From positions 1-20,594 of IMG/VR virus record IMGVR_UViG_3300045738_001863: a stretch of 20,594 nt of DNA; one strand, 5' to 3'. The notes under the pieces are model-generated. The model made no database searches, was not told where the DNA came from, and worked only from the letters and a program-made list of their open reading frames with translations. Both the position numbers and the translations under genes were made by a program. Shown here one piece after another: positions 5,708 to 18,804 of this stretch. The stretch comes from a virus. The stretch's first letter is position 1; each line of letters opens with the position of its first letter.

Positions 5708-6734
5708 TGTCCCATTGTACCATTCTTTTTACTAAACTGTCAAAGGAAATTTTTGGTTTCCAACCTAATTCCTCTCTTATGGGAGTAGAATCACCGAGTA
5801 ATAAGTTTACGTCTGCTGGGCGAAAAAATTCTTCATTTATTTTAACTAACGTTATCCATTTAGATTTATCTTCGTAACCATAAGTTTCTTCTAATCCCTC
5901 CCCCCTCCAAAAGCCATAAATTCCTGCGTGTTTGAATGCTAATTCTACGAATTCTCTTATGGAATGAGTTTCTCCACTAGATAAGATATAGTCTTTCGGC
6001 TCTTCCTGATTTATCATAAGCCAGATTCCCTCTACGAAGTCTTCGCTATCGCTCCAGTCTCTTTTGGCGTCTAGATTGCCTAGCTCGATAGGGTCGAAAG
6101 ACTCTATGGAGGCAAGGCGATGTTTTATTCTGGCTACTCCCTTGGTGATTTTTCTTGTTACAAACTCTTCGCCCCGCTTCGTCCCTTCGTGATTAAAAAG
6201 AATACCATGAACCGCAAATAAACCATGAGACTCACGGTAAACTTTTACTAAATGTCGAGCAGCAGCCTTAGACGCTCCATATGGGCTCCTTGGTTTTATG
6301 GGATGCTTTATATCTTGGGGAGAATAGTCCACGTCCCCCATCTCTTCGCTGCTACCCGCGCTATAGAAACGGCAATCTTGTTTAAATTTACGAATAGCAT
6401 TCATACAACGAAGCACGCCTATGCAATTAACGTCCATTACTTGTTCTGGCATATCCCACGAACAACCGACAAACGAATTTGCCGCAAAATTAATGAAATA
6501 ATCTGGTTGGATTTCTTTTACGAGGAGGTCAATGCTTACGTCATCGGATAAATCTCCATATCTAAACTCGAAGTTCGGATGACCTTGAAATTTCGAAGTA
6601 TTTATAAAGTTGGGATTTGCGGATCTTCTATACATTCCATAAACTCGAATGGGCTCATCTTGTTTAAGGAGAAGAAACTCTGCCATGTTCGCGCCATCTT
6701 GGCCCAATATTCCTGTTATAATTACTGTTTTCAT
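5685..6734 (-). CDS. gmd: GDP-mannose 4,6-dehydratase
   Basis: A 349-residue extended short-chain dehydrogenase that converts GDP-mannose to GDP-4-keto-6-deoxymannose, the precursor of fucose, rhamnose and perosamine sugars. It has the NAD(P)-binding GILGQDG motif at residues 8-14, the active-site AGSSEEMG region (126-133), the YGASK motif with Tyr152 and Lys156, and the typical FNHEGTKRGEEFVTRKI segment, all as in Gmd; length is normal. The ATG overlaps the stop of the upstream glycosyltransferase (TAATG). No partner enzyme (fucose synthase or perosamine synthetase) is in the window, so the product would be used by a host enzyme or by genes elsewhere. Confidence 0.92.
   Translation of the reverse strand: MKTVIITGILGQDGANMAEFLLLKQDEPIRVYGMYRRSANPNFINTSKFQGHPNFEFRYGDLSDDVSIDLLVKEIQPDYFINFAANSFVGCSWDMPEQVMDVNCIGVLRCMNAIRKFKQDCRFYSAGSSEEMGDVDYSPQDIKHPIKPRSPYGASKAAARHLVKVYRESHGLFAVHGILFNHEGTKRGEEFVTRKITKGVARIKHRLASIESFDPIELGNLDAKRDWSDSEDFVEGIWLMINQEEPKDYILSSGETHSIREFVELAFKHAGIYGFWRGEGLEETYGYEDKSKWITLVKINEEFFRPADVNLLLGDSTPIREELGWKPKISFDSLVKRMVQWDIGRLQES
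5714..5743 (-). promoter_or_regulatory. sigma70-type promoter inside the end of gmd
   Basis: On the minus strand TTGACA (5743-5738), an 18-nt spacer, TACAAT (5719-5714), then 6 nt (GGGACA) and the TTG start of the next gene. It lies inside the last codons of the dehydratase gene. It would separate transcription of the recombination block from the sugar genes upstream. The spacing to the start codon is the same as at the promoter near position 270. Confidence 0.55.
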
Positions 6735-7687
6735 TATCGCTTACTAACTAATTCCAAATATTTATCAGACCAATATGGATATAGGTCTCCATGAAAAGCT
6801 TTGTCTAAATTATTATAAGTTAAAAGTTTGACGAGTTCCCCCTCGTCATCTTCATGCAGGTGGACATTTTGCGGGTAGAGCCAATCGAGATCTGGTAAGT
6901 CATAATCTTTTAAGCTGGGTAGGTATAGTTGCTTAGCTGAAGGAAAATTTAATATGATTATAGATTTTATGTCTAAAGCTGCGGCGAGGTGCATGACGCC
7001 GCTATGTATACCTAGAAAATATTCACACGCCGCTAACTCTTCAAAGGACTCGTTGAGGGGGAGCCCGCATTTGTTTTCGACACTCTCTAGCCACCCGCAG
7101 CGATTAGCTCCTATTTCAATGAAGTCATAAGTATTACTGTAATCGCTTATAAATTTTTGGATAGTCTCTCTGTGCTCTGGATAGACTTCTCTGGCTCGGG
7201 GGTGAATGTTCTTCCTCTGCTCCTCAACGTGCCTGCCGGGCTCGAAGTTCACGGCAACTCTCGTACGTCGTTGCTTCTCCGGGGCAAAAGAAAGGTCCGG
7301 TTTTGGCCTCAGGTCTATTTCAAATCCACATGCTTTTTGTATTTTTTGAAAGAAGTGTCCGCCACCAAAATTAAAAAAAGCTTGAAAATGTTCGACTCTT
7401 ATGCCGTTGCAATCATCGATAAGAGGTTTAATGTCTTTGTTGTATTTGCTTAGGGCATTAAAATATTCTACGTTGGAGCTATGCACATAGGACTTAAAGC
7501 CGTGTTCCTCGAAAAACTTAGGCAAATGAAACACGGACAATACGTCTCCAAGTCCGGGGTTGGAATTAAAAAATACACAGTTTTCTGGCACGAACAAAGC
7601 TACTCCTTCTGGAACAGTTTTTCTATCCTTGCATAGTAAATCGTCATTGTTTTCGTAAAAATTGACAATTTTATCTGGATTAATCAT
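6734..7687 (-). CDS. GT9-like (heptosyltransferase-type) glycosyltransferase
   Basis: A 317-residue protein. The clearest signal is the C-terminal AACEYFLGIHSGVMHLAAAL block (about 224-243), typical of the nucleotide-sugar site in GT-B enzymes of the ADP-heptose:LPS heptosyltransferase class. The N-terminal half has FFNSNPGLGDVLSVFHLPKF, like the 'GxGDxLxxxPxL' start of that family, and a loop with RKNIHPRAREVYPEHRETIQKF. It would add a sugar to a lipid-linked or surface glycan. It is coupled to gmd by an overlapping stop/start. The start at 7687 has no Shine-Dalgarno sequence. Acceptor and donor are unknown; an inactive or retargeted relative is possible. Confidence 0.7.
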   Translation of the reverse strand: MINPDKIVNFYENNDDLLCKDRKTVPEGVALFVPENCVFFNSNPGLGDVLSVFHLPKFFEEHGFKSYVHSSNVEYFNALSKYNKDIKPLIDDCNGIRVEHFQAFFNFGGGHFFQKIQKACGFEIDLRPKPDLSFAPEKQRRTRVAVNFEPGRHVEEQRKNIHPRAREVYPEHRETIQKFISDYSNTYDFIEIGANRCGWLESVENKCGLPLNESFEELAACEYFLGIHSGVMHLAAALDIKSIIILNFPSAKQLYLPSLKDYDLPDLDWLYPQNVHLHEDDEGELVKLLTYNNLDKAFHGDLYPYWSDKYLELVSKR

Positions 7688-7780: not shown

Positions 7781-8011
7781 GTGACTACAAGGCAGAATTC
7801 GGATAAAGATGTATTCGTAGTATTGATTATTTCTGTAGTTCTGTGTGTGTCTCATCTCTATAAATTAGGAATGGAGGGCAATGAAAAAGAAAAGCCAGAC
7901 GAAAAAAAAGCCCTCCAGTGGGCCCCCCAACCCCGAGCCCCCAGATCTGCACCTTCCCTCGAAAGCCCAAAGGAGGGAAGCGTTCTCCACGATGAGCAAG
8001 GAAAAGACTAA
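7781..8011 (+). CDS. small membrane protein, proline-rich tail (overlaps next gene)
   Basis: A 76-residue open frame starting at GTG 7781. It has one predicted membrane helix near residues 10-30 (DVFVVLIISVVLCVSHLYKL), then a hydrophilic, charged and proline-containing tail. No family is recognised. The last 131 nt are also coding in another frame for the next gene. The Shine-Dalgarno sequence is poor (AGAG just before GTG; AAAGGAA is further away, preceding a four-codon ATG-TAA mini-frame). It is the first gene of the plus-strand membrane cassette. The clean hydrophobic helix supports it, but it could be a chance frame; confidence is modest. Confidence 0.45.
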   Translation: MTTRQNSDKDVFVVLIISVVLCVSHLYKLGMEGNEKEKPDEKKALQWAPQPRAPRSAPSLESPKEGSVLHDEQGKD

Positions 8012-8135
8012 AGAAGGGAGAAGAAAAGAGGCGGGAAAATTAGAAGTTATATTTAAAGTCGTATATCTATCTGTAGCGTATGGCTTATTTATTGTTTTCT
8101 TTATAGGAATGATTAGTTTAGAAAGGTGTTCATGA
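7881..8135 (+). CDS. small membrane protein with basic N-terminus
   Basis: An 84-residue protein. Residues 1-10 are very rich in lysine, 11-26 are proline-rich, 28-54 are charged, and 56-80 form one hydrophobic helix (VIFKVVYLSVAYGLFIVFFI). The charge pattern suggests the N-terminal domain stays in the cytoplasm. Start choice is good: GGAGGG lies just before the ATG. Its stop overlaps the next start (ATGA at 8132-8135). It shares 131 nt with the preceding frame. No family is recognised. The context of overlapping membrane genes suggests a joint function at the envelope. Confidence 0.65.
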   Translation: MKKKSQTKKKPSSGPPNPEPPDLHLPSKAQRREAFSTMSKEKTKEGRRKEAGKLEVIFKVVYLSVAYGLFIVFFIGMISLERCS

Positions 8136-8230
8136 ACACGTATAAATATATATTTGTGGGAGCGGTCGTGGCTGTGCTGGTCTACTTCCTCATTAAGTGT
8201 CCATGGTGCTCCTCAAATTATATATTATGA
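8132..8230 (+). CDS. 32-residue single-helix membrane peptide
   Basis: A very short gene. It starts with MNTYKYIF, runs through one hydrophobic helix (VGAVVAVLVYFLI, about 9-21), and ends with KCPWCSSNYIL, which contains a CPWC pair just after the helix. Support comes from coupling on both sides: ATG overlaps the previous stop (ATGA 8132-8135) and its TGA overlaps the next ATG (ATGA 8227-8230). AAAGG precedes the start. The CxxC could bind metal or form a disulfide outside the membrane. No homologue is recognised. Confidence 0.6.
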   Translation: MNTYKYIFVGAVVAVLVYFLIKCPWCSSNYIL

Positions 8231-8637
8231 AAAATATATGGAATAAAATAAAAAATTATTGGAGTAAGTTGCGTAATGGATTTTGGCCATTCGTTCTTAA
8301 ACACGATAAGTGCTTATATACTTTTTTGATTACGACTTTGGTATTTTTATCTATTATCGCTTATCAATCTCACGATCGCACCAAGCATCATCTGCAATGG
8401 AAAAAAGAGAGAGCTCTGCTCGTGCAGGATTTGAAGATCGCCACGGAAATTATTACTATTCAAGGTGAAATAATAAGAAAGAAAGAAGAAGTTATATCTG
8501 TTCAACGGCAAACCTTGGAACGAGCAAAGGGAATTATTCTGATGCAGAACGAGGCTATAAAAGATTTAATAAAAAGATTTATGCCGCCTCCTAAATCTGA
8601 CTCAAGGAATTGGGCTACTCACAATGAAGCTTACTAA
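8227..8637 (+). CDS. membrane-anchored coiled-coil protein
   Basis: A 136-residue protein. A basic, aromatic N-terminus (1-28) is followed by one membrane helix (about 29-47, LYTFLITTLVFLSIIAY) and a long charged helix (about 50-115) with coiled-coil character, ending in a short tail with MPPPKS. This layout resembles inner-membrane spanins (Rz-like) but is also common in unrelated phage proteins. ATG 8227 was chosen over an in-frame ATG at 8197 because it makes an ATGA overlap with the preceding small gene. It overlaps the next gene by 14 nt. Confidence 0.7.
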   Translation: MKNIWNKIKNYWSKLRNGFWPFVLKHDKCLYTFLITTLVFLSIIAYQSHDRTKHHLQWKKERALLVQDLKIATEIITIQGEIIRKKEEVISVQRQTLERAKGIILMQNEAIKDLIKRFMPPPKSDSRNWATHNEAY

Positions 8638-8875
8638 ACTAGATAAAAATGCACACTGGTGGAAGGGAACCCGCACAACTTGGTATTACCAAGATAAAGA
8701 GGGGTGGGTATGGCTAATTAAAGATCGAGACGGGGAAGAAAAAAAAATGAAGACTAAGCCCGAACACATTAGCCTAAGGTCAAGCAAGCATCATATTAAG
8801 TTTTATTTAAGGGTGTGTTTGGCCAGCTTCTTGGGGGTGTTCTTGGCTGCGCTAGTAGCTAGATTTTTATTATGA
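8624..8875 (+). CDS. small tail-anchored membrane protein
   Basis: An 83-residue protein. The first 55 residues are hydrophilic and tryptophan-rich (HWWKGTRTTWYYQDKEGWVW), looking like a small beta-rich domain. Residues about 60-83 form one C-terminal membrane helix that runs to the last residue. No family is recognised. The start lies within the preceding gene (14-nt overlap) and the stop overlaps the lipoprotein start as ATGA (8872-8875), so production of the two is probably linked. Confidence 0.65.
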   Translation: MKLTKLDKNAHWWKGTRTTWYYQDKEGWVWLIKDRDGEEKKMKTKPEHISLRSSKHHIKFYLRVCLASFLGVFLAALVARFLL

Positions 8876-9435
8876 AAAGAATCAAACCTTTGGCGTGGAT
8901 TTTGGCCGCAGTAATGGCAATTGGACCATTACTATTTACTGGTTGTGGTGTATTTAATCCCCCTTACCGGGACTCTGACGGATACTATGCGGTGCACTAT
9001 AGTTGTTGTGGTCCACAGGCTTTAGGAAGGGCTTTTGACATGTCTTACCAAAGAGATGGTATTATTTTCCTTAGGAGACCACATAGCGAAAAAGAAATCA
9101 GTAGATTCATACAGGACAGGGGACAGAAAAGCAAAGTTTTTCTTTCATATTTCAGTAAGAGTGCCGTGTGTATAACGTGGCCTTCAGAGATAAAGGCCGC
9201 CGCAAAACGCTATGGATTTACCCCGATTACCTTAGGGGAGATGGATAAATTAGATCCGAAGAAAGACGTGGCAGTTATTCTTGTTCGTGGTAGTACTCTA
9301 AAAGGAGAATGGCACTGGGTATGCTTTCCTTATTATAACGCGGAGAGTATTAAAAAATATTACGGCGAGAAAACTAAAATCGAAAAAATTTATCTATTAA
9401 GCGGCCCAGCGCATATTTTTAGTGGTGACCACTAA
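8872..9435 (+). CDS. lipoprotein with papain/C39-like cysteine motif
   Basis: A 187-residue protein. Residues 1-25 are a lipoprotein signal: KRIK, a hydrophobic core, then LLFTGC with Cys25 as the lipidated residue (the -3 position is Phe, acceptable but not ideal). The mature part has SCCGPQALGRAF with Cys45-Cys46, like the 'CGPxAL' nucleophile helix of C39 and related papain-fold peptidases, and GEWHWVCFPYY with His148, where the family has its histidine strand. The conserved Gln before the cysteine is not visible and the third catalytic residue is unclear. It may therefore be an envelope peptidase or transpeptidase-like enzyme, or a non-catalytic relative. It is the last gene of the membrane cassette and overlaps the convergent gene by exactly 17 nt. 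Confidence 0.6.
   Translation: MKRIKPLAWILAAVMAIGPLLFTGCGVFNPPYRDSDGYYAVHYSCCGPQALGRAFDMSYQRDGIIFLRRPHSEKEISRFIQDRGQKSKVFLSYFSKSAVCITWPSEIKAAAKRYGFTPITLGEMDKLDPKKDVAVILVRGSTLKGEWHWVCFPYYNAESIKKYYGEKTKIEKIYLLSGPAHIFSGDH
9419..9435. repeat. 17-nt palindrome forming the overlap of two convergent genes
   Basis: TTAGTGGTGACCACTAA has two perfect 8-nt arms around a central G. It contains the stop codon of the plus-strand lipoprotein (9433-9435) and that of the minus-strand glycosyltransferase (9421-9419), so the genes end in SGDH and SGHH. No T-run follows on either strand, so an ordinary intrinsic terminator is not supported. Confidence 0.8.
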
Positions 9436-10153
9436 GCTCTTTCATCTTCTCAAAACCTTCCCAGTTAGAAATGTCTGTTATTTCGTCGTCATGAAAACCG
9501 AACTGATCTGTCCACGTATAGGGGTGTCCCCAGTTATGTTCTAAAGAAAATTTTTCCGCTACATTCTCGGGGGCGAATTTCATGCCTTGTTTTCCTAGTT
9601 CTGCTCTAAATTCTCTACATATAAGATGATCTTCTGCAACTTGGTCTGGGCGCAGGGGCATTTCATCAGCTACTCCCCTGTTGAAAACCGCACCGACTCG
9701 GCGAGCGAGAGCGGTTGATCGTGGGCTAGTTAAATCAATTTCAGATACAGCCTTCATGAGTTTTTTACTGCGCAGAGAAAAGCCTCCGTTTCCTACTACT
9801 CCGTCAAACCATGGAGACCCAACGAAATCATATTCTAAAAATTTATCAGACCACGCAGCAGAGTTTAGAATAAAACCGTCGCTTTGAAAAATTAATAGAA
9901 AATCTGTGTCCACGTACTTGTGGACATCTTGAAACATAAGGCGAGAATAGAGAGAGATGTCGGGGATGGCGTCTATTGAGACGTGATCTTTATGATTAAG
10001 ATCGAAGGGGCATAAGAGTTTTACTTCTTTAAATTCTATATTTTTTGTACATTGATCCGCAGCAAACAGAAATTTTGCTACGTTATTTTTCACCCCCTCA
10101 ACACCCACTAGCGTTACGTTGGGGAGGCTAAGTTTATTATCTCTTGAGACCAT
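9419..10153 (-). CDS. DUF5672 glycosyltransferase (GT-A type)
   Basis: A 244-residue protein that closely follows the DUF5672 family of predicted glycosyltransferases: LPNVTLVGVEGV near the N-terminus (10-21), IPDISLYSRLMFQDVHKYV in the middle, then DTDFLLIFQSDGFILN with a QSDG in the metal/nucleotide-binding position, EYDFVGSPW, and GNGGFSLRSKKLM. A later AEDHLICREF and EHNWGHPYTW complete the pattern. It would transfer a sugar, possibly to a surface polysaccharide or glycoprotein; the acceptor is unknown. The start overlaps the preceding gene by 17 nt. The stop is inside a palindrome shared with the convergent lipoprotein gene. Confidence 0.85.
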   Translation of the reverse strand: MVSRDNKLSLPNVTLVGVEGVKNNVAKFLFAADQCTKNIEFKEVKLLCPFDLNHKDHVSIDAIPDISLYSRLMFQDVHKYVDTDFLLIFQSDGFILNSAAWSDKFLEYDFVGSPWFDGVVGNGGFSLRSKKLMKAVSEIDLTSPRSTALARRVGAVFNRGVADEMPLRPDQVAEDHLICREFRAELGKQGMKFAPENVAEKFSLEHNWGHPYTWTDQFGFHDDEITDISNWEGFEKMKELSGHH

Positions 10154-10421
10154 CTATCTTCTCTTCTAGACGATCAAATCTGTCGTTCATTCGTTCGGAG
10201 AACATTTTAAAGTCGTCTTTGCTAACGTATTCTTTAGGAAGAGAGAGGGCTAGTGAGGTGTGTTTTTCTCTTAGTTTGTCGATATCTATGTGATGATTTT
10301 TCATTAGGTCGTGATGCTCTCCTTTAATTTCATTTAGCGTGCCGAGAATCATTTTGAAAACCCATCCGCCCATGAGAGTAATTATGCCCACGGCTATATT
10401 TACAAGAATTTGATAATCCAT
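10137..10421 (-). CDS. membrane-anchored helical protein
   Basis: A 94-residue protein: one N-terminal membrane helix (about 5-25, ILVNIAVGIITLMGGWVFKM), then a charged helical region ending in LPKEYVSKDDFKMF and ERMNDRFDRLEEKIDGLKR, likely a coiled coil. This layout is common in phage proteins annotated loosely as holin-associated or spanin-like; none is proved here. The stop overlaps the glycosyltransferase start. There is no useful Shine-Dalgarno (AAGGG lies only 2 nt from ATG). An 11-nt element shared with the next gene upstream ends 5 nt before ATG. Confidence 0.7.
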   Translation of the reverse strand: MDYQILVNIAVGIITLMGGWVFKMILGTLNEIKGEHHDLMKNHHIDIDKLREKHTSLALSLPKEYVSKDDFKMFSERMNDRFDRLEEKIDGLKR

Positions 10422-11455: not shown

Positions 11456-11626
11456 TTAACTGTTATGAGATCTTAAGAGCCGCAAAGCTCCTATCGCCCA
11501 CGCCAGCCAAGTTACCGCAACGAGCGGACCTACAATTCCTGATTGGAGAAGTAATCCGAATCCCAAGAGGGTTAATCCCGTCCATGAATCATGGCTTTTC
11601 AAGTGCTTTAATAATAATGCTTTCAT
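11456..11626 (-). CDS. 56-residue small membrane protein
   Basis: A short gene. The protein begins MKALLLKHLKSHDSW and continues with two hydrophobic stretches (about 16-28 and 31-48: GLTLLGFGLLL and VGPLVAVTWLAWAIGALRLL), probably a helical hairpin, ending in RSHNS. The start is well supported: AAGGAG lies 8 nt before ATG. It sits just upstream of the methyltransferase. Size and topology would suit a small holin-like or regulatory membrane protein, but no family is recognised. Two TATAAT sequences lie upstream on the same strand (about 11671-11676 and 11693-11698), so a promoter here is likely. Confidence 0.7.
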   Translation of the reverse strand: MKALLLKHLKSHDSWTGLTLLGFGLLLQSGIVGPLVAVTWLAWAIGALRLLRSHNS

Positions 11627-11729: not shown

Positions 11730-12224
11730 ATGAATTTTAAAAGATTGTTATTAGGAAAAAATTTAAGATGGACTCTGCTCAGGCTATTGCTGTTGACGGT
11801 AGTTTTTCATCTTTATTTCTCGAATAATTTTAAATTAGTCTACAGTAGAGGGGACAGCATGTCTCCAACCATGGAGAACAAGTTGTTGCTCGTGGGCGTA
11901 GATTTTTATGACCATGACAATCTGCCAATGAGATATGACGTCGTAGTTGTTTACGATTCCATTGAGAGGGATTTTTTGACCAAAAGGATAATTGGTTTGC
12001 CCGGTGAAATTATTAGTGTTATTGACGGTCTTCTTTTTATTAATGGAGAAGAACTGGTCGATGATCTATATGGATACGGATGGTTCGATCACGTAACTTT
12101 TGACATGTACCCCCAAGAAATACCTTATGACATGTATTATGTAATTGGGGACAATAGAGAAGACTCTGTGCATGGCCTTTATCTCTACGACGAGATTGTC
12201 GGAAGAGTATTGAATGTGGAATAA
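11730..12224 (+). CDS. type I signal peptidase
   Basis: A 164-residue protein of the S26 family, which removes signal peptides outside the inner membrane using a Ser/Lys dyad. One N-terminal membrane helix (about 12-30). Box B: RGDSMSPTM with Ser43. Box C: MRYDVVVVYD. Box D: TKRIIGLPGE with Lys85. Box E: VIGDNREDSVHG. All boxes are in the right order; the short length with one helix resembles Gram-positive or TraF-like forms rather than E. coli LepB. It is a lone plus-strand gene between minus-strand genes. No Shine-Dalgarno is seen before ATG 11730. Its own nearby candidates are the lipoprotein and membrane genes at 7781-9435, though lipoproteins are normally cut by signal peptidase II. Confidence 0.88.
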   Translation: MNFKRLLLGKNLRWTLLRLLLLTVVFHLYFSNNFKLVYSRGDSMSPTMENKLLLVGVDFYDHDNLPMRYDVVVVYDSIERDFLTKRIIGLPGEIISVIDGLLFINGEELVDDLYGYGWFDHVTFDMYPQEIPYDMYYVIGDNREDSVHGLYLYDEIVGRVLNVE

Positions 12225-12230
12225 TATAAT

Positions 12231-12869
12231 TTAAGTCCAGAAGTATAACGGGTTTCTGGTAGGGTTTGCGCTCCAGCGAGTTTTACCGGTGTGACCATCG
12301 TTGATAGTCGGAGAATCCATCGTCGCGCCATCCTCTTCAGGAGGCGTTTGATGTTTCACCCCAAAGAAATATAAATCATGAGAGGCAGTATTCATTTCGA
12401 AGGAGTGGAGAGAAAAGGTTCTAGGTAGATCTAGTGCTTTTGCAAAATGTAATGGATTACGATTTTCGTAGAAGTCTAATGTATGCACGGAGCAACCCGG
12501 GTGACTGTCGTGTGTCCCGTGTTCTGGGCGACCTTCGCTCGCACAAGTCATAAAGAATAGGCCGCCGGGCCTTAGCATCTTCGATATATTGCGCAGACTT
12601 TCTTCAAAAAATTCGTCATGTTCAAACGCTTCTGTAGATACTATGGTATCATAAGGTATAGACGGCTCATGCTTGTGCATGGGGCAAACTAAATCTACAT
12701 TCGGTCCCGGGCCCACGTCTATTCCTAAGTATTCACAATTTTCGAAAAGATAACGGTTATTGCCATTTATATCTTGAGAACCAGCATCAAGCACTCGAAC
12801 ATTTCTGAAGTACGCGGGGAAAACCTCACGTACTCTTTCGCAATAAAGTTTTTGTTCAAGGTGTGCCAT
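12231..12869 (-). CDS. class I SAM-dependent methyltransferase
   Basis: A 212-residue protein. VRVLDAGSQDINGNNRYLF (motif I, about 24-42), YLGIDVGPGPNVDLV (acidic residue after strand 2), YDTIVSTEAFEHDEFFEESL (motif II region) and ISKMLRPGGLFFMTCAS (motif III) give a typical Methyltransf_11-type core. The C-terminal third is proline- and asparagine-rich and unlike the family core. The neighbouring genes (another methyltransferase, signal peptidase) suggest a role in modifying a glycan or other surface molecule. Start ATG 12869 has GAGG 12 nt upstream, within the end of the next gene. It converges on the signal peptidase gene with a 6-nt gap. Confidence 0.75.
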   Translation of the reverse strand: MAHLEQKLYCERVREVFPAYFRNVRVLDAGSQDINGNNRYLFENCEYLGIDVGPGPNVDLVCPMHKHEPSIPYDTIVSTEAFEHDEFFEESLRNISKMLRPGGLFFMTCASEGRPEHGTHDSHPGCSVHTLDFYENRNPLHFAKALDLPRTFSLHSFEMNTASHDLYFFGVKHQTPPEEDGATMDSPTINDGHTGKTRWSANPTRNPLYFWT

Positions 12870-12873
12870 ATTA

Positions 12874-13581
12874 TTATGTTACCTCTGAAACACAGAAATA
12901 TCTATTGCTATGTTTGCTCTCGTGAAGTGCGTCGACTGAAAACCCCGAAAAGTCGAGCATGAGTTTCAGGCAGTTTATAGTTGGGGCACAAGTCGCTTTG
13001 TATTTGTCTGAGTCCATTTTCTCTTTAAAATATTTTAGTTCTTCGCTGTCACCATCATTATAAAGAGTTTCTGTTAAGAGCAACGCTTTATCGTTACAAA
13101 CTGATCTAATTTTTTCTAACGCTAAGTACGGGTGCTTTAAGTGGTAGAAGACCCCAAAGAACATAACTATATCAAATTTACCTAGGCTGGAGGAATCGAG
13201 ATCATAAACATCTATTGCTCTTGGTTCTTCACACTTAGAGTCTAGCGCTTCTCTTACGAAATTGACCTTATCTTTCATTTTATAATAGACATGATCGGGT
13301 GGGTGCTCAAAATTGTCGTAATATTTATCTGTGGGAACTACTCTTGACGCCCCCCTTCGTTCCGAGTAGAAAGAAAACCCCCCATCTAGAGCTCCTATAT
13401 CTAAGACTGATTTATCTTTAAAATCTATATCGTCTAGTCTCCATTGGTGGACCTCATCTTCTATTGAGTAATTCTTCAGGCCGGGGGTAGTTATAGATTC
13501 ATTTATCTTATAAGAATGCCACCATCTTAGCCCCTTTGACTGTAGATTCTCTAATTCATTTTTTATTTCCTGAGGACTCAT
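12874..13581 (-). CDS. CmoB/DUF1698-like methyltransferase
   Basis: A 235-residue protein. The order WHSYKINESITTPG, DKSVLDIGALDGGFSFYSER (motif I, about 56-75), RVVPTDKYYD, and FDIVMFFGVFYHLKHPYLAL (about 132-151) matches the CmoB/DUF1698 group, whose founding members act on tRNA wobble uridine; many relatives sit among polysaccharide genes and act elsewhere. It lacks the length of true CmoB (about 320 residues), so a tRNA role is not established. It starts at ATG 13581 just after the nrdB stop, with GGAGG about 12 nt upstream, and ends 5 nt before the next methyltransferase gene. Confidence 0.75.
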   Translation of the reverse strand: MSPQEIKNELENLQSKGLRWWHSYKINESITTPGLKNYSIEDEVHQWRLDDIDFKDKSVLDIGALDGGFSFYSERRGASRVVPTDKYYDNFEHPPDHVYYKMKDKVNFVREALDSKCEEPRAIDVYDLDSSSLGKFDIVMFFGVFYHLKHPYLALEKIRSVCNDKALLLTETLYNDGDSEELKYFKEKMDSDKYKATCAPTINCLKLMLDFSGFSVDALHESKHSNRYFCVSEVT

Positions 13582-17345: not shown

Positions 17346-17714
17346 CTACTTAAAGAACTTTCCACTATTTTCCCCCTTGGGGTCTTGCTGGTGCTTCTTG
17401 CCTCTTCTCCGCTCGCTGTAATTTTTAAAATACTTGTCCTTTACGGGGTCTTTACCTCGTTGCTTCTCTCTTATGTCGCTACATCTTCTAGAAGCGTCCC
17501 ATAGGTCCCCCATGTTCCCCTTCTTATCGGCTGTGTATTTCATGAAGCTTTTTTTAGAGCCGTCTAGCTTAGTGTCTATACCAGCGTTCGGCGACGTCCA
17601 TACCCTTTCCCATTCTACGCCATCGTCGTCTATGTAAACGTGGGGATCATTCATCTTCTGAAGCTCTTCGATTACGAGGTCTGTTCCGGGATGTCTGAAT
17701 AAGTATACTGGCAT
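17346..17714 (-). CDS. FmdB-like small protein without zinc ligands
   Basis: A 122-residue protein. The start (MPVYLFRHPGTDLVIEELQKM ... VEWERVWTSPNAGI) follows the FmdB 'putative regulatory' domain, but the two CxxC pairs of its zinc ribbon are absent. The rest (DGSKKSFMKYTADKKGNMGD, LWDASRRCSDIREKQ, DPVKDKYFKNYSERRRGKKH) is lysine-rich and matches, from memory, a small protein often seen in marine myophages. Function is unknown; nucleic-acid binding is possible from its charge. It starts 11 nt after the glycosyltransferase stop with no visible ribosome site. Confidence 0.7.
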   Translation of the reverse strand: MPVYLFRHPGTDLVIEELQKMNDPHVYIDDDGVEWERVWTSPNAGIDTKLDGSKKSFMKYTADKKGNMGDLWDASRRCSDIREKQRGKDPVKDKYFKNYSERRRGKKHQQDPKGENSGKFFK

Positions 17715-17724
17715 ATCGCAATAA

Positions 17725-18804
17725 TTAGAGTAAGTTCATTAGGTCATCTAGCGTTTTAGCGTAAGTAAATCGCTCTCGCATGAGCGATCCCGCTTCGTTT
17801 TTCTTATCGACTTTAACTCTATCTATTGCTTTGTGACATGCTGAAATAAAATCTTCTTCATCAAAATCAAATATATTTCCTTGATTGACTAAATTGCCTT
17901 TTTGAAAAAATCCGCCATCATGGGAATCAATTTTGCCAGAAGGCTCTACTAATACTGAATTGATTTCATCAGCCCAATCTTTGTGTACGTGGGCATTTAG
18001 TATTACAGCGTGTTTTCCTAGACCAACTGAATGAAATTCTGGCAGACTCCACCCTTCGCCTCCAGACATACCAATAACAATGTCGCCAGAATTAAGAAAA
18101 TCATTATATAATGTATTCTTCGACATCCAGTTTAAGAATGTTATATTAGAGTACCTTCTGCCCCCGAAGCACTTCCCTAAGACTGAGTTGTTTGACTCTG
18201 GGGTCATAAATTTATTATAGAGAGCGCACTGTAGGTGATACTTGGGGTTATCTCCAAATTCTTTAACCCATGCTTGTAGAACTTTCTCGTGATGCTTTCT
18301 CCTTTCGAACTTGCCACATACATTGAAAACTATTCTCCCATCCTTAAAATATTCTTTTCCTGTCGATTTAAAATTGACTTTATCAAAACCAAGGGGGGTA
18401 TAATGCACGGAGACTCCCGCTTCCTCGAAAACTTCTTGAGTATACCTAGAAGTAACAACGGTAGTAAAGTTCTTGGAGATATTTAATTCTATAGGCGTCG
18501 GAGCATCTAGTTCATAAAAAGTTAAGAATACGGTCTTATCGCTATAAGACTGAAAACCTTCTGGATTTAAGTGCCAGAGCTTGATCAGAGGAGTAGACCG
18601 ATGATGCGTGGGGAGAGACTTCTTTATTCCATCATCTAGCCATTCGCTAAATTCTGAGTCAGGTTCCTCTGTGGAGAGGTCCACATCCCCCATGGGAAAG
18701 ATAGGGGGATGCAGACCTCGGCTCTTAATTTCTCTTAGAAGATTTATTGAAACCTGTCCAAAAGAAACCGAGTTGATAGGAAGGTGGACCGCAAAGTCTG
18801 CCAT
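17725..18804 (-). CDS. GT-B (GT1/GT4-like) glycosyltransferase
   Basis: A 359-residue protein. The C-terminal half carries the usual GT4 signals: VFNVCGKFERRKHHEKVLQA (start of the second Rossmann fold, about 172-191) and SGGEGWSLPEFHSVGLGKH (about 254-272) with the Glu-x7-Glu type donor site. The N-terminal half includes SFGQVSINLLREIKSRG, TVFLTFYELD and TSRYTQEVFEEAGV, as in acceptor domains of this fold. It would transfer a sugar from a nucleotide donor to a surface glycan or to a phage structure. It begins 2 nt after the upstream stop, with no Shine-Dalgarno, so it is probably read by coupling. Confidence 0.8.
   Translation of the reverse strand: MADFAVHLPINSVSFGQVSINLLREIKSRGLHPPIFPMGDVDLSTEEPDSEFSEWLDDGIKKSLPTHHRSTPLIKLWHLNPEGFQSYSDKTVFLTFYELDAPTPIELNISKNFTTVVTSRYTQEVFEEAGVSVHYTPLGFDKVNFKSTGKEYFKDGRIVFNVCGKFERRKHHEKVLQAWVKEFGDNPKYHLQCALYNKFMTPESNNSVLGKCFGGRRYSNITFLNWMSKNTLYNDFLNSGDIVIGMSGGEGWSLPEFHSVGLGKHAVILNAHVHKDWADEINSVLVEPSGKIDSHDGGFFQKGNLVNQGNIFDFDEEDFISACHKAIDRVKVDKKNEAGSLMRERFTYAKTLDDLMNLL

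Follow-up and report, generated by a model that had tools for sequence, protein, structure and literature searches.

A conserved viral gene cassette combining two membrane proteins and a lipoprotein with a predicted C39-like peptidase domain, possibly linked to host envelope disruption

Results

Layout of the cassette

What is a run of small, overlapping genes for membrane proteins doing among genes that face the other way? The question is raised by a fragment of 20,594 nt, catalogued as a viral contig and referred to here as the window, in which six plus-strand ORFs (A to F) overlap successively by 131, 4, 4, 14 and 4 nt. The cassette is flanked on both sides by minus-strand genes: on the 5′ side a gene with weak glycosyltransferase-9 similarity (6734–7687) and on the 3′ side a DUF5672 gene (9419–10153). 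A previous account based on the letters of the window (the sequence-only reading) had described these ORFs and overlaps, and we reproduced its coordinates and lengths exactly; its statement that all six products carry a membrane helix or a lipobox also holds, as each has one strong hydrophobic segment, that of F being a lipoprotein signal.

The neighbours of the cassette in the window are replication and nucleotide genes rather than late genes. A motif search gave no sigma-70 promoter signal above chance. A hairpin that may act as a terminator (9418–9436, plus strand) lies between the ends of F and the convergent minus-strand gene, and is a consensus match only (four such hairpins found against 1.3 expected).

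Genes or chance frames

ORF A (7781–8011; 76 aa, GTG start) has a short N-terminus, one membrane helix at about residues 11–29 and a polar tail in the part that overlaps B. ORF B (7881–8135; 84 aa) has a Pro/Lys-rich N-terminus, a C-terminal membrane helix and the last residues LERCS. ORF C (8132–8230), of 32 aa counted from its ATG, consists of a single helix plus the motif CPWC.

Homologues of B, D, E and F are present in the syntenic contigs L001 and G002 with E-values of 1e-34 to 1e-84, and those of A in L001 and L002/L007 with E-values of 1e-26 to 1e-28. Values of pN/pS for these five ORFs range from 0.26 to 0.53, synonymous change exceeding non-synonymous change, and are rough because synonymous sites are near saturation. 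Syntenic homologues and purifying selection together indicate that A, B, D, E and F are real genes. ORF B, found only in the window, L001 and G002, is 60–63% identical in amino acid sequence to its counterparts in L001/L002, with a pN/pS of 0.31–0.36. For A the value is 0.45–0.53, the weakest of the five, and part of the ORF overlaps B, so that its case depends mainly on the conserved N-terminal half; a weak A-like ORF (E 0.044) also occurs directly upstream of D in L049.

ORF C stands apart. It has no detectable homologue and is absent from L001 and L002, where the B stop and the D start overlap directly (GTGTTCATGAA). At the same junction the window has some 95 nt more, and the extra nucleotides encode C between two ATGA overlaps; the support for C consists of this reading frame and these two junctions. 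Because the B–D junction of the relatives is a direct ATGA overlap, we read C as probably a recent insertion, or a small gene private to this lineage and unbacked by conservation.

That the ORFs might be chance frames is ruled out by pN/pS for A, B, D, E and F; C may still be one.

Gene order among relatives

We ran profiles of B, D, E and F over the six-frame ORFs of all related loci, the relatives being IMG/VR contigs. In two of these, L001 and the 109-kb G002, the order A, B, D, E, F is kept, as are the two minus-strand genes that flank the cassette in the window. Apart from the window, 20 contigs have E, and in every one D lies upstream of it: directly in 19, one gene away in L053. The E sequences of L015 and L016 are identical in alignment; these contigs may be near-identical copies, and the independent count is then slightly below 20. 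F lies downstream of D–E on the same strand, within two genes, in 13 of the 20 (L001, G002, G003, G004, G005, G007, G010, L049, L051, L053, L054, L058 and L061). It also occurs without the D–E pair, in L060, L062/L063, L064, L065 (where an unassigned D-like ORF lies two genes upstream) and the fragment L011, and in several contigs stands alone beside phoH. No F homologues were found in bacterial genome contigs.

Co-occurring homologues in other phages, on which the sequence-only reading had made its proposal hang, thus exist. Its view of six proteins as one machine is not supported in that form: the profile search rules out all six as one conserved unit, with only D–E constant, F present in 13 of 20, A and B confined to close relatives and C to the window.

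The conserved unit is instead D–E(–F). Both the four-base ATGA overlap of E with F and the overlap of D with E recur in several contigs, which makes the coupling of these genes a conserved feature.

Predicted properties of D, E and F

ORF D (8227–8637; 136 aa, ATG start at 8227) has a basic N-terminus, a membrane helix at residues 29–47 and a Pro-rich C-terminus. Its periplasmic segment is predicted to form an amphipathic helix, with a helical periodicity peak near 100–103 degrees. D thus combines the inner-membrane N-terminal helix and periplasmic domain of an i-spanin, and its predicted topology is i-spanin-like (Rz-like), with an N-in membrane anchor. Searches for a spanin family match gave a best E-value of 0.066, for one D homologue, and nothing for F; the single-sequence search with D was empty, homologues of D being reached via E.

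ORF E (8624–8875; 83 aa) has a Trp-rich N-terminal domain and a C-terminal membrane helix (a tail anchor), with a basic stretch between the two; its conserved motif is LDKNAHWWKG..W..QDK.G.WWI. As the basic stretch precedes the C-terminal helix, the positive-inside rule would place the N-terminal domain in the cytoplasm.

ORF F (8872–9435; 187 aa) has a lipoprotein signal ending in LFTG-C25, leaving a mature protein of 163 aa that comprises a predicted C39/papain-like cysteine-peptidase domain; the lipobox is also found in F homologues. F is predicted to be an outer-membrane-type lipoprotein. Across 19 F homologues, one of them a fragment, there is no variation at Cys25, His42, Cys46-Gly47, Ser77 or Gln81 and almost none at His148-Trp149; Cys46 and His148 are both invariant over 18 homologues, giving F the conserved catalytic Cys and His of a PF13529-like peptidase. 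The homologue from L064 passes the PF13529 (Peptidase_C39_2) cut-off (28.9 bits against 24) and that from L010 matches weakly (17.9 bits); F of the window itself has no PF13529 match. AlphaFold modelled the mature domain well from 18 rows (pLDDT 85.7, pTM 0.82), and poorly from nine full-length rows (pLDDT 54). A Foldseek search of the PDB with the F model gave no match below E 0.001 (top E above 0.29). The weak matches are mostly of papain fold: the best was staphopain B precursor (probability 0.75), others being staphopain, the C39 domains of ComA and PCAT1, and Josephin.

F shares with Peptidase_C39_2 the CGPxAL motif, the downstream His and the order of these elements. It differs in that the window protein falls below detection, strict conservation does not extend to the third catalytic residue, and the protein is lipid-anchored and phage-encoded. 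On this sequence and model evidence we assign F, with moderate confidence, a predicted C39-like cysteine-peptidase domain.

Genomic settings and signal peptidase I

In G010, G003, G004 and G005, D–E–F lies within the structural (late) gene cluster, with genes for portal, tail and head protease close by. A second setting is found in the six F-less contigs that we viewed (L016, L050, L052, L055, L056 and L057): here D–E lies upstream of nrdB–nrdA, in the genome region that it also occupies in the window, with a gene for signal peptidase I after it. Nothing separates E from this gene in L050 and a 59-aa membrane protein does so in L055; in four to five F-less contigs, among them L016, L052, L056 and L057, the position is taken by a protein that has both a lipobox and a C-terminal helix.

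The window has its own signal peptidase I gene (11730–12224, plus strand), 2.3 kb downstream of the cassette. Its product scores 65.3 bits against TIGR02227 (cut-off 47), matches PDB 4nv4 at E 2e-8 and has the invariant Ser43 and Lys85 of the catalytic dyad, as expected of the enzyme. In the window minus-strand genes lie between cassette and peptidase; with F present and signal peptidase I nearby but apart, the window group has an intermediate layout.

Phage-encoded signal peptidase I is widespread in this phage group, with an intact Ser-Lys dyad in L016 (8526–9062), L050 (8231–8779), G002 (29408–29902) and G010 (67441–67995). Distant signal peptidase-like matches occur in a few unannotated phage records, so the gene alone is not unique. 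All three larger contigs further encode an exported chymotrypsin-like serine protease (G010 69338–70285; G002 17588–18517; G009 12305–13312) with a signal peptide and, by eye, GHVID and GSSGG motifs, which brings the envelope proteases to three: F, signal peptidase I and this enzyme.

Small membrane genes are also found nearby. The window encodes on its minus strand a 94-aa membrane protein (phrog_462; 10137–10421) and a small holin-like membrane protein (11456–11626); genes of both types adjoin D divergently in F-less contigs (L016 6762–7379; L050 6349–6945).

Lysis-type neighbours

In L061 one contiguous run comprises a holin-like gene, a 59-aa ORF, an Rz-like lipoprotein, D, E and F. In L010, L013 and L065 the holin-like/lipoprotein pair lies upstream of D/F genes with none to two genes between, so that F is found close downstream of the pair in four contigs. 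Both family matches are weak (holin E 0.033; lipoprotein E 0.0057). L060, at 0.9 kb from F, and G010 each have a gene for a Hydrolase_2 endolysin whose N-terminus carries a signal or anchor sequence. The sequence-only reading had recognised no endolysin inside the cassette, and we found none there or elsewhere in the window; the cassette therefore lacks the endolysin of a holin-endolysin-spanin arrangement.

Just before the holin-like gene stands a gene for a 384–403-aa protein (L010 4466–5635; L013 3874–5028; L061 5477–6631; L065 5523–6734) that has no named-family match; its GAGGGSGAGT motif recalls FtsZ/tubulin.

Relation to known systems

The two-component spanins (lambda Rz/Rz1, T4 PseT.3/PseT.2) likewise pair an N-anchored inner-membrane coiled coil, here D, with a nearby lipoprotein, here F, encoded by overlapping or coupled genes. 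In contrast to them, the cassette shows no detectable homology, a conserved E sits between D and F, F has an enzyme-like C39 domain, and the window has no adjoining endolysin gene. The enzyme-like character of mature F also sets it apart from o-spanins as described (PMC6139136). Since membership by sequence was tested and no family match resulted, we treat the cassette as spanin-like in predicted layout and do not assign it as a spanin member.

A lipobox plus a C-terminal helix is the layout of U-spanins (PMC6139136), and the F substitute of L016, L052, L056 and L057 shares both with T1 gp11. It differs from T1 gp11 in having no detectable homology to families of that type, and in sitting with D–E and signal peptidase I instead of in a holin-endolysin cassette.

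ORFs A–F of the window gave no significant match to PHROGs, Pfam, NCBIfam or PDB sequences. Searched against annotated phages, the DNA of the cassette region matched nothing, and neither did the protein sequences of F, an E homologue and a portal homologue. Our literature search found no paper on phage-encoded signal peptidase and no description matching a lipid-anchored C39-like domain linked to a phage signal peptidase I; both the domain and the tie appear unusual.

Discussion

Taken together, the analyses suggest a role at the envelope and, judging by gene position, late expression in most genomes. The most likely use of the cassette to the virus is in breaking or remodelling the host cell wall from within. 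Our favoured reading, held tentatively and at somewhat less than even odds, is that D–E–F is a late envelope-disruption module of spanin type, associated with lysis. What favours it is the company of holin-like and lipoprotein genes in L061, L010, L013 and L065, the U-spanin-like layout of the protein that substitutes for F, and the Hydrolase_2 enzymes of G010 and L060. The constant order of D and E with F usually after them, the Rz-like topology of D, the lipobox and predicted peptidase domain of F, and the position among structural genes in G010, G003, G004 and G005 speak for it as well. D would be the inner-membrane anchor, with an i-spanin-like coiled coil extending into the periplasm; E would be its small tail-anchored membrane partner, translationally coupled to D, with the Trp-rich domain in the cytoplasm. 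F, as a lipid-anchored C39-like cysteine peptidase, may cut either its partner proteins or peptide links of the envelope, candidates for the latter being peptidoglycan stems and wall-to-outer-membrane tethers. It would thereby do the outer-membrane side of the o-spanin job, either replacing an ordinary o-spanin or acting alongside one. The muralytic enzyme itself would be a Hydrolase_2 (SleB-type) endolysin from a separate locus of such phages. The peptidase activity of F, its substrate and its place in the outer membrane are all predicted, as are the timing of the cassette and its role in lysis.

Against this reading, no member convincingly matches a curated lysis family, and the spanin-like lipoprotein that accompanies the holin-like gene could make D–E–F redundant for lysis. 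The enzyme-like mature part of F, the placement of the window's cassette away from late genes, the contigs in which F stands by itself next to phoH and the weakness of every Foldseek match count against it too. The verdict of the sequence-only reading that this is not a plain lysis cassette is fair in view of the predicted peptidase in F, and is weakened by the i-spanin topology of D, the holin-like pair nearby and the U-spanin-shaped substitute. The same three features make a lysis link the best supported of the functions that it had offered, with superinfection exclusion a less likely candidate.

More specific, and doubtful, is the idea of a proteolytic spanin-type system in which the D–E pair works with a lipid-anchored C39-like peptidase that cuts the wall or outer-membrane tethers, the outer-membrane component being interchangeable: a peptidase lipoprotein in some phages, a U-spanin-like protein coupled to the phage signal peptidase I in others. 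If true, some phages swap or supplement the passive, membrane-fusing o-spanin with an outer-membrane-anchored enzyme; phage exit would then include a proteolytic step, and in some phages the genome would supply a signal peptidase I gene beside that of such an enzyme. It would also offer a testable genetic swap, of F against the U-spanin-shaped protein, within one phage group not covered by annotation.

Small membrane proteins and lipoproteins are typical components of exclusion systems (T5 Llp and T4 Imm/Sp are examples), and a cassette of such proteins could serve superinfection exclusion or surface modification, with outer-membrane F and D–E blocking or digesting either the receptor of later phages or their tail proteins on entry. 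The placement among early/middle genes and glycosyltransferases in the window and relatives, and the exchange of cassette components between lineages, agree with this. However, several genomes have D–E–F inside structural (late) gene clusters, an inner-membrane coiled coil plus an outer-membrane lipoprotein is the layout that spanins need, and family searches found no homology to known exclusion proteins; we regard exclusion as unlikely.

Ranked below exclusion, and also unlikely, is a role in envelope protein maturation, in which F, signal peptidase I and the exported trypsin-like protease would process exported phage or host proteins with D and E as scaffolds. Signal peptidase I follows D–E in the six contigs viewed and lies on the same strand downstream of the cassette in the window, and phages with near-complete data also encode the exported protease; yet F and signal peptidase I are seldom adjacent, and the peptidase of G010 is 83 kb away.

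Least probable is that F is an inactive or binding-only papain fold and the cassette a structural inter-membrane tether, a spanin without proteolysis: the third catalytic residue does vary, and the oxyanion glutamine usual in C39 peptidases does not appear, the invariant His42 lying in that region, but an invariant Cys46 and a nearly invariant His148-Trp149 over 19 divergent homologues would be unusual for a dead enzyme. The lysis-associated module is thus favoured over exclusion, maturation and tether.

Two further kinds of small lipoprotein occur in the relatives. A conserved short one with a GKPPEIQTKDYRPLPYGYGHGSSTL motif (G010 84003–84200; G002 837–1031; G009 698–988) has as neighbours a multi-helix membrane protein and a 201-aa membrane-anchored protein, and in L018 a 45-aa Cys-rich lipoprotein ORF (8775–8912) directly follows F.
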